NCBI RefSeq assembly: GCF_034522235.1
Contig: NZ_JAXHLN010000002.1
Location: forward strand, 310,896-374,895
Origin: Thiohalophilus sp.
GTDB taxonomy: Bacteria; Pseudomonadota; Gammaproteobacteria; UBA6429; Thiohalophilaceae
DNA: 64,000 nucleotides
Direction of reading: 5' to 3'
The position numbers were made by a program, and so were the translations under genes. Positions 1,093 through 7,586 of the stretch are shown piece by piece. The first letter of the stretch is position 1. Every line of letters starts with the position of its first letter. The notes beneath the pieces were generated by a model. It did not search any database. It saw only the letters and a list, made by a program, of their open reading frames with translations, and was not told the DNA's origin.

Positions 1093-1112
1093 GGGTCGGA
1101 CCACCGCAACAT
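1093..1112 (+). repeat. REP-like arm upstream of the transposase remnant
   Basis: The 20-mer GGGTCGGACCACCGCAACAT recurs exactly at 7567-7586, and its first 12 bases recur inverted at 2011-2023 on the other side of the transposase remnant. A small hairpin (TGAGGC at 1152-1157 pairing with GCCTCA at 1165-1170) lies between this arm and the transposase start. REP-associated transposases are typically bounded by such palindromic elements. Confidence 0.7.
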
Positions 1113-1206
1113 ATTGAAACCACGGAACTTTCACTTAAAATAAGTACTGTCTGAGGCCTTAAACGCCTCATTTCATGGATGAAAACGTCGCTTTGAGGAA
1201 GCCGTC

Positions 1207-1957
1207 ATGCCGCGCGCGAGTCGCTATTTTTTTACCCCATCACGTCTGGTACATTACCCTCTGCTGTCACCGGAAAGATTTTCTGCTCAAATTCGCCAAA
1301 GACCGTCTGCGCTGGCGGTACTGGCTGTACCAGGCCAAAAATCGTTTCGGGCTTTGCGTGTTGAACCACTTTGCCACCTTCAATCACATTCACCTGCTGG
1401 TCCGCGATCGCGGCGAGGGGGAAATGCCCGGTCGATGCAGCTTGTCGCCGGACGGACCGCGCAGGAATACAACCGGCGAAAAGGCCGCAAGGGGGTGGTT
1501 CCGGGAAGACCGCTATCACGCCACCGCAGTCGATAGCGAAGGCTATCTAGCGCGCTGTATGGTGTACATCGATCTGAGCATGGTGCGGGCCGGTGTTGTC
1601 CGCCACCCGGCCGAGTGGGCGGTGTGCAGTTACCGTGAGATACAGCAACCGCCGCAACGCTACACCGTGATTGATCGGCGGGCCCTGTGTGAGCTGTTGG
1701 GGTTTCATGATGATGCCGCGTTGAGGCAACAGCATGCCGACTGGATCGAAGCCGTGTTGGCCAAAGGGGAATACGCGCGCGAACCCGGCTGGACGGAGAG
1801 CCTGGCTGTCGGTGAGTGGGATTTTCTCGAGGCGGTCAAGTCGACACTCGGTCACCGTAGCTGCCGCCGGGTGATCGATGAACAGCACGGGATGCTGGCG
1901 TTGCGTGAACCCGTCACGGCCTACTGTGCTGATTTGGGGGGAGAATCGCCATTGTAA
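1207..1957 (+). pseudogene. REP-associated (Y1/IS200-like) transposase, frameshifted
   Basis: The start MPRASRYFFTP at 1207 follows a good ribosome site (GAGGAAG). Coding then jumps frame to HHVWYITLCCHRKDFLLKFAKD and the HxH motif (NHIHLLV, nicking-metal ligands of HUH/Y1 transposases). It returns to the first frame for RSMQLVAGRTAQEYNRRKGRKG, and jumps again for FREDRYHATAV...CMVYIDLSMVRAGVV, the conserved second half. At least three frameshifts are therefore needed, so the gene is very likely dead. The family (RAYT, TnpA-REP) mobilises or maintains REP sequences, and REP-like arms flank this copy. The C-terminus may also be altered, since its frame ends at 1957 without a familiar tail. Confidence 0.85.
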
Positions 1958-3087: not shown

Positions 3088-4098
3088 ATGAAAATAAAAC
3101 CTATAGATAAATTAATTCGAAATATAAGAAAAAAATATTATATACATGCATACAAAAAAATATCTACATTACAAATTGAGGCAATCAAAAAATTGCCTGA
3201 TTCACCATTTAAAAAAAATCCTCCAAATGGATATTGTAGAGGGATAGATTTTTATGAAGAATCAGATTTAAGACGCATCCTGACCTTGGCAATGGTGAAA
3301 TATTACAAAAAATTAGGTCAGATACCTGACTTGATAAATCCCAAATACTTTAATGAAAAGATACTTTGGTTAAAATTTTTTTCTGAGATCAAGATTCCTG
3401 AGAGTGGTAATAAGCTTCTCACGTCACATTTCATTCCGGAGGACCTTGCGGATGTTGTTCAATGCCCCGAAATTTATTGGCGTACATCTGTACCTAGGCT
3501 CCCAAGAAATCATGAAATAAAACGGGGATCTTACTATATAAAAGCCACGCATGGGTCAGGCATGTACAAACAAGTATGTTATCCGCTTGACGAAAGAAAG
3601 ATTGTAAAGCTTGAACAAGAATGCAAAAGATGGCTTGCTAGACCTTTTGGGCTTGAAGACGGTGAGTGGTGGTATAATGTTTTTGATAGAGAAATAATAA
3701 TTGATGAAGATGTTGTAGGAAACAACAGATCTACATCATATGATTTCTTTGTATTTAATGGAAAAGTTGAATATATATTACTTCACAGGAAGGTGAACAG
3801 AAAGTCTGGGGAAGTGGAAGAACTTACGCGCCTCGACTCCGATTTTTGTCCTTTACCGTCTTCGCTACAGTCAGCCAGGCCGCAAGTTAAAAATCAGGAT
3901 TTACCTGATGAGATAAAGCAACAAATGAAGTACTTGGCATCTCGAATCGGAGGTTGCGTGCCTTTTGCAAGAGTTGATTTATTGTTTGGAAGTAATGAAA
4001 GAATATATCTTCTCGAAGTCACATTTTCCCCCGCCAACGGGTTGGCAAAAAGACCTGTTGAACTTGAAATGTGGCTAGGAAACAAATGGGTATTGTAA
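3088..4098 (+). CDS. TupA-like ATP-grasp amide ligase
   Basis: The 336-residue protein fits the TupA-like ATP-grasp family. It has an N-terminal helical region, the family hallmark FNEKILWLKF (about residue 89), the ATP-loop segment YIKATHGSGM (about 152), a YDFFVFNGKVEYI strand pair (about 212) and a metal-site-like ARVDLLF...IYLLEVTFSPANG end. ATP-grasp enzymes form acyl-phosphates and then amide or peptide bonds; TupA makes a polyglutamate-type cell-wall polymer. The substrate here is unknown. The gene is A/T-rich, especially the first 400 bases, unlike its neighbours, and lies next to transposon wreckage, so horizontal gain is likely. The next gene begins 17 bases downstream, so the two are probably co-transcribed. 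Confidence 0.75.
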   Translation: MKIKPIDKLIRNIRKKYYIHAYKKISTLQIEAIKKLPDSPFKKNPPNGYCRGIDFYEESDLRRILTLAMVKYYKKLGQIPDLINPKYFNEKILWLKFFSEIKIPESGNKLLTSHFIPEDLADVVQCPEIYWRTSVPRLPRNHEIKRGSYYIKATHGSGMYKQVCYPLDERKIVKLEQECKRWLARPFGLEDGEWWYNVFDREIIIDEDVVGNNRSTSYDFFVFNGKVEYILLHRKVNRKSGEVEELTRLDSDFCPLPSSLQSARPQVKNQDLPDEIKQQMKYLASRIGGCVPFARVDLLFGSNERIYLLEVTFSPANGLAKRPVELEMWLGNKWVL

Positions 4099-4115
4099 AT
4101 TTTGGAGGGATTGAC

Positions 4116-5492
4116 ATGTATTCAGAACCGAATTTTATGGCTCTTTATGACGGGGGAACTCCATCAGGTATAAGCGATGCTCCATTAATCATAAATACCT
4201 GTTTGACTGGCAACGTACTTCAACGTGACAAAGCACCACACTTACCCATGAATACGATGCAAATCATTGAGGATGGTTTGCAAGCCATCGAGCATGGTGC
4301 CAGCATGCTGCACATCCATGCAAGGGACGAAAACGGTCGTCCCGAATGGCGACCAGAACCTTACGCACGTATTTTTGAGGGCATCCGCAAATATAATTCA
4401 GATGTTGTATTAATAGCCACTACCAGCGGACGAGAACACGGGAGCGTGGAAAAACGAGCAGCGGTTTTGAGTCTGGAAGGGGATGCAAAACCAGATATGG
4501 CTTCTTTGACTTTAGGTTCTCTTAACTTCCCTAATACTGCTTCTATCAACGCACCCGATACGATCCAGGAACTGGTAATCCGCATGAAAGAACGGAACAT
4601 TCTTCCTGAACTCGAAGTTTTTGATATGGGCATGCTTAATTACGGCTTCTATTTGCGTCGCAAAGGAATGCTGCCAAAAAACTGTTATATTAATCTTTTG
4701 CTGGGTTCATTGGGGAGTGTACCAGGAAGAGTACTTGATCTCTGTAATCTGACGCGCGAGATTCCGGCATCATGGATTTGGGCCGCTGCGGGGATCGGGC
4801 GCTATCAGTTAAGTATGAACACCGCCGCAATGCTCCTGGGTGGACATGTGCGAGTAGGACTTGAGGATAGCCCTTTTATGGATTACAAGCAAATGCAGCC
4901 TGCAAGCAATGGCGATTTAGTTGCACGTGTTGCCAGACTTGCCGATGAGTTAGGTCGGCCGGTTTCTTCGCCGGCTCATACCAGGAAACATCTGGGCATA
5001 GGGGATTCAGCCAATTGGGAGGCGACCGAGGCTTACATTCGACCAATGCAGCAGGAGGATCTGCCGGATGTGTTGAGTTTGCTTGAAAAGTGGAACATGA
5101 AGCCGGAAAGCACAAGCAACACAGGAGTCCGGCCCGAACGTGATCATATTGAAATCGGGAACACTTTTGTCGCCCTATTACAAAACAGGATTGTCGGTGT
5201 GGGTAGTTTTCTTATGATTGACGCCGAGCATGCGGAAACAGCCAGCCTTGCAGTTTCCCCCGAGTTTCTCGGTTGTGGAATTGGTTATAAATTACAGCAT
5301 AAACGGCTCGAAGAAATGCGTGCACGAGGTGTTCACCATGTGCGAACCGAAGCCGATCGTCCGAACGTTATCCACTGGTATATAGAAAAATTTGGTTATC
5401 GAAAGACGGGAACAACTCATAAGCGACACGACTTTGGAGATTCCGAACGCAAAGAATGGACGGTGCTTGAACTCAACCTGAAACATGAATAA
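4116..5492 (+). CDS. BKACE (beta-keto acid cleavage enzyme) fused to a GNAT acyltransferase
   Basis: The start at 4116 is chosen for its GGAGGG ribosome site; a start at 4071 would overlap the previous gene. Residues 20-300 form a DUF849/BKACE TIM barrel: HIH at 66-68 (zinc ligands), then R246, E250 and D251 in HVRVGLED, matching the Arg/Glu/Asp set of 3-keto-5-aminohexanoate cleavage enzyme. BKACEs convert a beta-keto acid plus acetyl-CoA into acetoacetate plus a new acyl-CoA. Residues about 307-458 form a GNAT domain with an acyl-CoA loop (EFLGCGIGYKL). The fusion suggests that the CoA thioester released by the first half is used by the second to acylate an amine; this is inference. It lies between an ATP-grasp ligase and a convergent Mur-type ligase. 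Confidence 0.85.
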   Translation: MYSEPNFMALYDGGTPSGISDAPLIINTCLTGNVLQRDKAPHLPMNTMQIIEDGLQAIEHGASMLHIHARDENGRPEWRPEPYARIFEGIRKYNSDVVLIATTSGREHGSVEKRAAVLSLEGDAKPDMASLTLGSLNFPNTASINAPDTIQELVIRMKERNILPELEVFDMGMLNYGFYLRRKGMLPKNCYINLLLGSLGSVPGRVLDLCNLTREIPASWIWAAAGIGRYQLSMNTAAMLLGGHVRVGLEDSPFMDYKQMQPASNGDLVARVARLADELGRPVSSPAHTRKHLGIGDSANWEATEAYIRPMQQEDLPDVLSLLEKWNMKPESTSNTGVRPERDHIEIGNTFVALLQNRIVGVGSFLMIDAEHAETASLAVSPEFLGCGIGYKLQHKRLEEMRARGVHHVRTEADRPNVIHWYIEKFGYRKTGTTHKRHDFGDSERKEWTVLELNLKHE

Positions 5493-5553
5493 ATAGAGAA
5501 CTCATATAAACCGTATTGGATATGTAATAAAATCAAATAGAATTGTTTGTGTG

Positions 5554-6885
5554 TTATGCACGCACATAGCGGGAAATGTAGTGGTTGTGAAACAGTTGAG
5601 CCGGAGCATCAAGCAAAGGGCATACATCGCAGGAACGTACTTTCACCTTACAATATGGCACAACGCAAGATACTTGATGGCCTAAAATAGAAAGTACTAC
5701 ACGGCGCAAACGCTGAGTGCTCTTACCTTTGATCAAGACTATGTCACCTTTGCGCAATTTGAGCTCCAGCAACGACACAACTGCCTTGAAATCCGGTCTG
5801 ATAAGCTGGACCGACTCCCGGCTTAAACCCGCTTCCACAGCACCTGCACGAATGCCGCTCATACCTGTGCCCAGACAGATCACCTCGTCAGCAATTTTTC
5901 CCAGCCACCGACCAATTTCTCGATTTAAATCACCTTGTTTGTATGGCGGTTCCTCCACGCCACCAAACACCACTATCTTGCGTGAAGCTGGAATTGATGC
6001 TAAGACATCAAATGCAGCATGGACAGACTCAATTGTCCCCTTGAAGCTATCGTCGAGCAGCGTTATGTCTCCAGGCAATCGTAGCATTTCCATCCGAGAT
6101 TCCGCAGACGCCACTTCACTCAGCCGCGCAACGGCAAGGTCAATATTCACGTTTTCTATGTTAGCCACTGCCAAGGCAGCAAGGAAGGGATAGACCATGT
6201 GAAGGCCTAAAAACTGGGTTTTAATTTGAAAGGACCCATTTGGAAAAATGGCAGTGAATGTAGTTCCGTCGGAGGAGCTTTTTATTTGTTCAGCCCTGAT
6301 GTCATTATCTGTGTTCAAACCTACCGTGATTACTTGTGCATTAGTTTGAGTCGCCATCCAACGTACATTTGGATCATCGCCGTTCAGGATTGCAATACCC
6401 CTATTTGACAAAGATCGGACCATCTTTACCTTTTCAGCACGCGTGTCGTGCAACGTGGGAAACGAACGATTATGCTCGCTCTTGATCGAGGTTACAACAA
6501 CGATATCGGGCCTTAGCATTTTGGCATATGACTCCATTGGACCTGGACCAGCAACGCCGGCTTCAATAACGGCATGGTGGTCGTTCCAATGAATTCGTAA
6601 GATATTTGCGGCGAGGCTTGACCCGTAGTTACTGAAAGAAAAATATCTTTCCGGACAATTCAGAGCTGCACTAATCGTCCGGCGTGTAGTAGTTTTGCCA
6701 AGGGAACCTACAACTGCAACAATACGGGTTCGCCGAAGAAAAATTCGGCGATATGCCTTTGCCAGCCTTGATAAGTAACGATGATAACGATCAAATTCTC
6801 GACGCAGAAAAATATGACCTGAATTTGGCAATGCACGAAATAATCGTATTAGATCAGGCAATTTCTGTATATTCTTAAGTCTCAT
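5554..6885 (-). CDS. Mur-ligase-like ATP-dependent amide ligase with Cys-rich tail
   Basis: The 443-residue protein has a basic N-terminal region, then a Mur-type P-loop VVGSLGKTTT (about 58-67), an acidic Mg-site segment AVIEAGVAGPGPME, SEHNRSF, RAEKVKMV (position of the carbamoylated Lys in Mur ligases), and a MurF-like C-terminal domain with LDDSFKGT and GDIVLIKGKSTQRLR. The N-terminal UDP-sugar domain of true MurF is replaced by a short basic stretch, so the substrate is probably not UDP-MurNAc-tripeptide. The tail carries four cysteines (407, 412, 419, 422; C-x4-C-x6-C-x2-C), unusual for the family and possibly a metal site. It is convergent with the BKACE-GNAT gene, 61 bases away, and probably belongs to the same pathway. 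Confidence 0.8.
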   Translation of the reverse strand: MRLKNIQKLPDLIRLFRALPNSGHIFLRREFDRYHRYLSRLAKAYRRIFLRRTRIVAVVGSLGKTTTRRTISAALNCPERYFSFSNYGSSLAANILRIHWNDHHAVIEAGVAGPGPMESYAKMLRPDIVVVTSIKSEHNRSFPTLHDTRAEKVKMVRSLSNRGIAILNGDDPNVRWMATQTNAQVITVGLNTDNDIRAEQIKSSSDGTTFTAIFPNGSFQIKTQFLGLHMVYPFLAALAVANIENVNIDLAVARLSEVASAESRMEMLRLPGDITLLDDSFKGTIESVHAAFDVLASIPASRKIVVFGGVEEPPYKQGDLNREIGRWLGKIADEVICLGTGMSGIRAGAVEAGLSRESVQLIRPDFKAVVSLLELKLRKGDIVLIKGKSTQRLRRVVLSILGHQVSCVVPYCKVKVRSCDVCPLLDAPAQLFHNHYISRYVRA

Positions 6886-7179: not shown

Positions 7180-7437
7180 ATGCCCAAAACCAAAGGAGTC
7201 GCACTGTTGGCTGTTTTTGCCGTCGTTTTCAATCTGGCCTTTACCGGGAAGAATACTTTTCAGGGCATTGTGAAGGACAAAAAGATCACCATCGGAAAAA
7301 ATGCGATATACAATTCAGCGGAAAGCGGAAAGCGGAAAGCGGAAAGCGGAAAGCGGAAAGCGGAAAGCGGAAAGCGGAAAGCGGAAAGCGGAAAAACGGG
7401 ACAGATTTATTTTTACGTAAAACGGGACAGATTCTGA
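7180..7437 (+). CDS. Doubtful small ORF with signal-like start and heptamer-encoded repeat
   Basis: The frame encodes 85 residues. A hydrophobic start (GVALLAVFAVVFNLAFTG) could be a signal or anchor. After about 45 residues the frame enters the 7-base repeat at 7318, which reads as a seven-residue repeat ESGKRKA about three times, and ends in TGQIYFYVKRDRF. No ribosome site is visible before the ATG. The repeat makes the C-terminus length-unstable, since one unit more or less changes frame. It may be a chance frame. Confidence 0.25.
   Translation: MPKTKGVALLAVFAVVFNLAFTGKNTFQGIVKDKKITIGKNAIYNSAESGKRKAESGKRKAESGKRKAESGKTGQIYFYVKRDRF
7318..7394. repeat. Heptanucleotide tandem repeat, 11 x GCGGAAA
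   Basis: Eleven perfect copies of GCGGAAA. They are followed by two spaced copies of ACGGGACAGATT (7397-7408 and 7423-7434), so the array sits at the edge of a larger repeated block that continues to the REP-like 20-mer at 7567. Confidence 0.95.
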
Positions 7438-7566: not shown

Positions 7567-7586
7567 GGGTCGGACCACCGCAACAT
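7567..7586 (+). repeat. Third copy of the REP-like 20-mer
   Basis: Identical over 20 bases to 1093-1112. It lies directly before the truncated DUF2189 frame and directly after the unidentified minus-strand remnant, so it appears to mark the breakpoint of both. Confidence 0.7.

Follow-up and report, generated by a model that had tools for sequence, protein, structure and literature searches.

A horizontally acquired-looking block of TupA-like ATP-grasp, BKACE-GNAT and Mur-Cys4 enzymes in Thiohalophilus

The window analysed here is the whole 64,000-nucleotide stretch of the Thiohalophilus sp. assembly GCF_034522235.1 (contig NZ_JAXHLN010000002.1, positions 310,896 to 374,895 of the forward strand), and the subject of this work is a block of three enzyme genes at window positions 3088-6885. 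The original prediction had assigned these genes to a TupA-like ATP-grasp protein, a BKACE-GNAT protein and a Mur ligase, and the assignments are borne out by Pfam and by the open reading frames (ORFs), all three of which are open and intact. The TupA-like ATP-grasp amidoligase is encoded at 3088-4098 on the forward strand (336 residues) and is followed on the same strand by the bifunctional BKACE-GNAT protein (4071/4116-5492), for which the ATG at 4116, giving 458 residues, is preferred over the GTG at 4071. The TupA and BKACE-GNAT genes are probably transcribed as one operon, since the end of the first at 4098 is separated from ATG 4116 by a gap of 17 bp in which a GGAGG ribosome-binding site lies just 5' of the ATG. 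The third gene, on the reverse strand at 5554-6885 (443 residues), encodes a protein with MurF-like middle and C-terminal domains, a long N-terminal helix and a C-x4-C-x6-C-x2-C tail, hereafter Mur-Cys4. It is convergent with BKACE-GNAT, with 61 bp between their 3' ends, and the block is therefore not a single operon.

A perfect 20-bp direct repeat, both copies on the forward strand, flanks the block at 1093-1112 and 7567-7586; its 19-base core gave no match in 100 shuffles. The whole genome holds three copies (at most one mismatch, or the 19-base core), all in the same orientation, the third being at G000:C2:286675 (G000 is this genome) inside an 85% match to window positions 1093-1271. An ORF at 1175-1957 on the forward strand resembles a decayed REP-associated (Y1-type) transposase when its translation is read by eye, with no Pfam match; some other labels, including an integrase and some neighbouring genes, were likewise given by eye, only part of them being scanned with Pfam. 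At the downstream edge only the repeat copy and short tandem AGCGGAA repeats (7317-7394, forward strand) were seen, and no transposase was found among the three downstream ORFs scanned with Pfam (to 10.9 kb), which was not a full search. The bounded setting proposed for the block is thus recognisable in the decayed transposase-like ORF upstream and in the repeat at both edges.

The first gene had been described as strongly A/T-rich. Indeed, TupA has a GC content of 36.0% and a third-position GC content (GC3) of 0.306, against 49.7-59.1% and 0.58-0.75 for the four flanking genes; BKACE-GNAT (47.6%, 0.436) and Mur-Cys4 (46.5%, 0.426) share one composition, from which TupA differs. Neither the TupA nor the BKACE-GNAT protein found a match at E 1e-3 in any of 39 same-genus or same-family genomes, several of them incomplete. 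The sole same-genus genome carries the upstream permease at 94% identity and has different genes after it; no DNA match to the block was present in the two stretches compared, nor any TupA or BKACE match in the genome as a whole. The low GC, the absence from the 39 family genomes and the 20-bp repeat at both edges make the block look horizontally acquired, and it is probably cargo from at least two sources.

The transposase genes upstream, the two composition classes and the absence of both TupA and BKACE-GNAT matches from the 39 related genomes are also what might be expected of chance wreckage, that is, three unrelated cargo genes in a transposon-rich zone with weak or no expression and no joint role. 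However, all three ORFs are open, their motif residues are conserved and the TupA to BKACE-GNAT junction is operon-like, and this explanation is judged rather unlikely.

The ATP-grasp protein matches the Pfam family ATPgrasp_TupA (PF14305) with an E-value of 5.1e-14 and 52.8 bits, above the gathering cut-off of 25 bits. The residues that we take to be those of the ATP-grasp motif are well conserved, with the Lys kept in 7/7 relatives covering that site and the RxD and following Glu in 8/8 TupA relatives; the His of KxxHG is kept in six of the seven. No PDB chain matched the protein by sequence, even at E 1, and the phage collection gave no match. The best relative in the class (G251) is 28% identical and has the N-terminal extension in common with the window protein. 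The family likeness is to the C-terminal domain of Cj1438 of the Campylobacter capsule, which has the TupA-like amidoligase fold; this domain, Cj1438C, is the tested enzyme of the fold and is reported to form amides at the glucuronic acid carboxylate (PMC11800379). The window protein differs from Cj1438 in that it stands alone at 336 residues, extended at the N terminus and not joined to a glycosyltransferase, and the two are likened by family and not by sequence. A family namesake is TupA of teichuronopeptide synthesis in alkaliphilic Bacillus, the product being a polymer composed of polyglutamate plus polyglucuronate (PMC8153356). In contrast to Bacillus, no polyglutamate or teichuronate genes were noticed by eye upstream of the window gene, with no dedicated search run. 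Among the three annotated plasmid relatives, one adjoins an oligosaccharide flippase gene and a second lies ~2.4 kb from a glycosyltransferase gene; a fourth plasmid record, from Paenibacillus, carries no annotation. The genomic TupA loci have varied neighbours, as judged by eye.

The second protein matches Pfam BKACE (PF05853; E 2e-79, 267.2 bits against a cut-off of 24.8) and, in its fused part, Acetyltransf_1 (E 1.6e-11). It resembles the BKACE (DUF849) enzyme Kce of PDB entry 2y7d in sequence (9e-47), in the HxH...E metal site and in a conserved Arg/Asp pair, and differs from it in the fused GNAT domain and in falling below the cut-off of the NCBIfam Kce equivalog (KAH cleavage enzyme, NF052387; 232.9 against 382 bits). 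In an alignment of 38 distinct BKACE rows including Kce, from which duplicates and pieces shorter than 230 residues had been dropped before counting, the metal-site His, His and Glu and the Arg are invariant, and the Asp is kept in 37 of the 38. The column that we take to be Glu14 of Kce holds Val in 7/7 GNAT-partnered rows. The catalytic Tyr145 of Kce is said in a preprint to be present in all BKACE sequences (PMC12871164). The column taken as Tyr145 holds Phe in the window protein and in 33/38 distinct rows, and therefore Phe does not set the window BKACE apart; its use as a mark of flavophos-like chemistry was rejected on the same count.

Nine BKACE-GNAT relatives were drawn from the genome collection. 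A Gallionellaceae locus (L078) encodes a full-length fusion 61% identical to the window protein, three further loci (L079, L080 and L081) encode the fusion in reverse order, with GNAT first and BKACE second, and two genomes of one genus (G123 and G246) have BKACE and GNAT as neighbouring frames. In the tree, the window protein and six other GNAT-partnered BKACEs (7 rows) are set apart by a branch with support 93/87, short of 95; the other 31 rows are without such a GNAT match, the DNA checked for many of them being 1.5 kb per side. A GNAT partner, fused in either order or adjacent, is present in every row of this group, and BKACE-GNAT is probably a single enzyme for both the making of an acyl-CoA and its transfer. 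A structure prediction from two sequences reached a predicted local distance difference test score (pLDDT) of 41 and was not used.

An ATP-dependent ligase or probable adenylating enzyme is encoded directly upstream of BKACE-GNAT in 3/7 loci, namely the window, the Gallionellaceae locus and Halorhodospira neutriphila (L081:823-3772), where a different ATP-grasp gene directly precedes the GNAT-BKACE fusion. The Gallionellaceae gene is AMP-binding-like (25.3 bits, below the Pfam cut-off of 29.9), overlaps the fusion gene by 4 nt and is itself preceded by a TPR-sulfotransferase gene. No ligase gene was seen directly upstream in the remaining four loci (L079, L080, G123 and G246), as judged by eye in the stretches read. 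Separately, BKACE genes on a Streptomyces plasmid (L031) and a Salmonella plasmid (L032) lie beside genes for RibA, gamma-glutamyltransferase, a methyltransferase and riboflavin synthase, possibly a flavin-linked cluster common to distant hosts; these riboflavin-associated BKACEs fall outside the GNAT-partnered group.

The third protein has the middle and C-terminal domains of the Mur ligase fold (Mur_ligase_M, E 1.8e-27; Mur_ligase_C, E 1.1e-13). MurF is both its nearest NCBIfam model (TIGR01143) and the nearest fold to a structural model built from seven sequences with pLDDT 80 (Foldseek 6.4e-27, TM-score 0.72), and the two have in common the P-loop and the invariant Glu, His and Lys. In contrast to MurF, the window protein scores below the subfamily cut-off (175.7 against 288.6 bits), matches the profile from position 60 on and lacks the N-terminal domain that binds uridine diphosphate (UDP), the model showing only helices in this part. 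In addition, the alignments show that the DxYNANP-type motif, which we take to be a MurF motif, is replaced, and that a Cys4 tail, C-x4-C-x5/6-C-x2-C, is present in 11/11 Mur-Cys4 members and absent from 8/8 other MurF-like matches passing the E 1e-34 or E 1e-60 search thresholds given below (G134, G333, G352, G160, G274, G492, G741 and G666). The tail is modelled at pLDDT below 50, so that metal binding gets no support from the model. Seven Mur-Cys4 rows lie on one side of a branch with an SH-aLRT support of 94, below the mark of 95, in a quick tree in which long branches meet. One of the matches lacking the tail, in G134 (L073:9000-10610), has a hydrophobic N-terminal part replacing the usual domain and lies in what appears by eye to be a cell-wall-like gene cluster.

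Two relatives of Mur-Cys4 are fused to a peptidyl-tRNA-hydrolase (Pth) domain, to which the window protein is not. In G323 (L098:9152-11065) a 637-residue ORF has Pth in front and Mur-Cys4 behind (Pth E 1.7e-43), and in G359 (L099:8836-11031) one open frame has the opposite order (Pth E 7.8e-38). Both fused copies have Arg or Lys in place of the Asn of GGHNG, presumably the Pth motif; each of these genomes also holds a separate, higher-scoring Pth, and this genome, G001, G119 and G346 have one Pth each. The contexts of the Mur-Cys4 genes are diverse. In Gemmobacter the gene lies between pyruvyltransferase and glycosyltransferase genes, in G119 its neighbours include an Asn synthase gene, a gene weakly matching GNAT and one whose AMP-binding match falls short of the Pfam cut-off, and in G346 a tandem pair adjoins an L,D-transpeptidase gene. 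The last of these contexts, together with the MurF-like fold and nearest model, would suit a role in the cell wall, in which a MurF paralogue attaches another dipeptide or amino acid to peptidoglycan or to intermediates of its recycling. The missing UDP-binding domain, the replaced motif, the shortfall against the murF cut-off and the presence in this genome of another MurF-like match (a 465-residue frame) argue against such a role, which we regard as improbable.

A shared pathway had been proposed for the three enzymes, and their co-occurrence was examined in a class sample of 369 genomes per search, this genome being counted in each. TupA (E 1e-6) was found in 9 genomes, BKACE (E 1e-30) in 16, three of them with a GNAT partner, and MurF-like proteins (E 1e-34) in 10, five of them with the Cys4 tail; the stop at E 1e-34 could have missed diverged Mur members of the type found in G464, G444, G448 and G511, which would score near or below that limit against the window protein alone. 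Under strict definitions (a TupA match at E 1e-6, a GNAT-partnered BKACE, a Mur protein with the Cys4 tail), no genome of the sample other than this one holds more than one subfamily. Only 0.02-0.09 further genomes would be expected by chance for each strict pair, and therefore the class sample alone can show neither a link nor the absence of one. Looser sets add three genomes: in G274, TupA and a MurF-like gene lacking the tail lie on different contigs, and in G309 and G398 TupA and an unpartnered BKACE are ~2.4 Mb or more apart or on different contigs, the exception being one TupA in G309 ~0.5 Mb from a BKACE. A phylum sample screened with the Mur profile had 8/398 genomes passing E 1e-60, five (including this genome) with the Cys4 tail and three without.

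Profiles of all three families were also run against 22 other loci (9 Mur-Cys4, 6 BKACE-GNAT and 7 TupA), with up to ~10 kb read per side (15 kb for Gemmobacter) and several cut by contig ends. This gave a single pair, in G464, where glutamine-synthetase and FAD-oxidoreductase genes separate TupA (25.0 bits, just at the Pfam cut-off) from Mur-Cys4 over ~4.7 kb. Three genomes of that genus (G444, G448 and G511) carry the Mur gene, but the 13-20 kb read in each holds no TupA, and BKACE-GNAT stands beside TupA or Mur-Cys4 in 0/22 loci. Elsewhere the genes next to BKACE-GNAT and Mur-Cys4 are different ones, and the refuting condition set with the original prediction tells mostly against a shared pathway. 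In a single small-molecule pathway, BKACE-GNAT would make and transfer an acyl group, while TupA and Mur-Cys4 would supply amino acids, the product being an acylated amide or short peptide. Partial favour for this idea comes from the ligase or adenylating-type genes upstream of BKACE-GNAT in 3/7 loci, including the weak AMP-binding gene overlapping the Gallionellaceae fusion and the ATP-grasp gene in Halorhodospira, and also from the 17-bp gap with its ribosome-binding site, the like composition of BKACE-GNAT and Mur-Cys4 and the G464 pair. The convergent Mur-Cys4 gene, the differing TupA composition, the absence of a second two-subfamily genome (at low power) and the lack of BKACE-GNAT beside either partner in the 22 loci leave the shared pathway unsupported, and we consider it very unlikely.

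Upstream of the block, and separated from it by other genes, is a region of glycan-type genes broken up by transposons. A GT25 glycosyltransferase gene (C2:282575-283354; 37.6% GC, GC3 0.281) and a polysaccharide-pyruvyltransferase-like gene (G000:C2:285509-286624; 36.0% GC, GC3 0.293), both resembling TupA in composition, sit among transposases 27-31 kb upstream of the block, and an ISL3-type transposase gene lies between them (L135; G000:C2:282575-286624). The third copy of the edge repeat is found ~50 bp past the pyruvyltransferase-like gene. A further 26-31 kb upstream on the contig are an O-antigen-ligase-like gene (C2:251374-252333) and an HldE-type gene with PfkB and cytidylyltransferase domains (C2:255099-256556); an outer-membrane efflux gene and ThiC are likewise further upstream.

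Taken together, there is about an even chance that the block is acquired cargo that decorates a surface glycan or peptide-like molecule and is not one conserved pathway. The amide and acyl chemistry originally proposed fits each family. Domains, conserved residues, tree groupings, composition and gene contexts are observed, and we infer the following substrates and products, along with metal binding and a glycan target. The TupA-like protein would use ATP to couple an amine or amino acid with the carboxylate of a sugar, the reaction of Cj1438C on glucuronate being the model. The BKACE half would convert a beta-keto acid and acetyl-CoA to acetoacetate and a new acyl-CoA, whose acyl group the fused GNAT would move onto an amine. 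Mur-Cys4 would likewise spend ATP to link an amino acid with a carboxylate, here on some carrier that is not a UDP-sugar, and its tail may bind a metal. Decoration of this kind is consistent with the intact ORFs and conserved motif residues, the foreign composition, the match in composition between TupA and the GT25 and pyruvyltransferase-like genes with the repeat copy by the latter, the glycan-type neighbours of some TupA relatives and of the Gemmobacter Mur-Cys4, the grouping of GNAT-partnered BKACEs (93/87) and the Cj1438C precedent (PMC11800379).

Several observations weigh against the decoration proposal. The upstream glycan-type genes are at least 27 kb away with other chromosomal genes between, and the low GC that they have in common with TupA could be convergent. 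Moreover, TupA in G251 adjoins no recognised glycan genes, the TupA gene of the Deltaproteobacteria Smac51 plasmid has neither a flippase nor a glycosyltransferase gene nearby, no clear glycan cluster surrounds the BKACE-GNAT relatives and the G346 Mur-Cys4 pair is apart from recognisable glycan genes.

The transposase genes upstream of the window also accompany an AbiEii-like gene (L135:9755-10633) and a SIR2-like gene close to one for an ATPase whose weak SMC/AAA matches do not reach the cut-off (L139:12383-18169), which resemble defence-island cargo. An anti-phage defence role for the block was rejected, with no PADLOC match for any of its three proteins.

The novelty of the block lies in its parts, BKACE-GNAT and Mur-Cys4 being unusual and apparently undescribed enzyme subfamilies; no description of the BKACE-GNAT or Mur-Pth pairings was found in the open-access literature, subscription papers being mostly outside the search. 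When domains are fused, their chemistry is likely to be linked. The occurrence of BKACE and GNAT in both orders suggests a route in which a special acyl-CoA is made and attached at once, and a MurF-like ligase that lacks the UDP-binding part and is fused to Pth in both orders suggests an amide ligase that does not use peptidoglycan precursors. A bolder proposal, which we hold to be unlikely, is that Mur-Cys4 represents a new class of ATP-dependent amide ligase that, together with a Pth-like partner, acts on esters of aminoacyl or peptidyl groups, such as those bound to tRNA, that BKACE-GNAT makes and uses unusual acyl-CoAs within one protein, and that both are mobile cargo altering surface chemistry.

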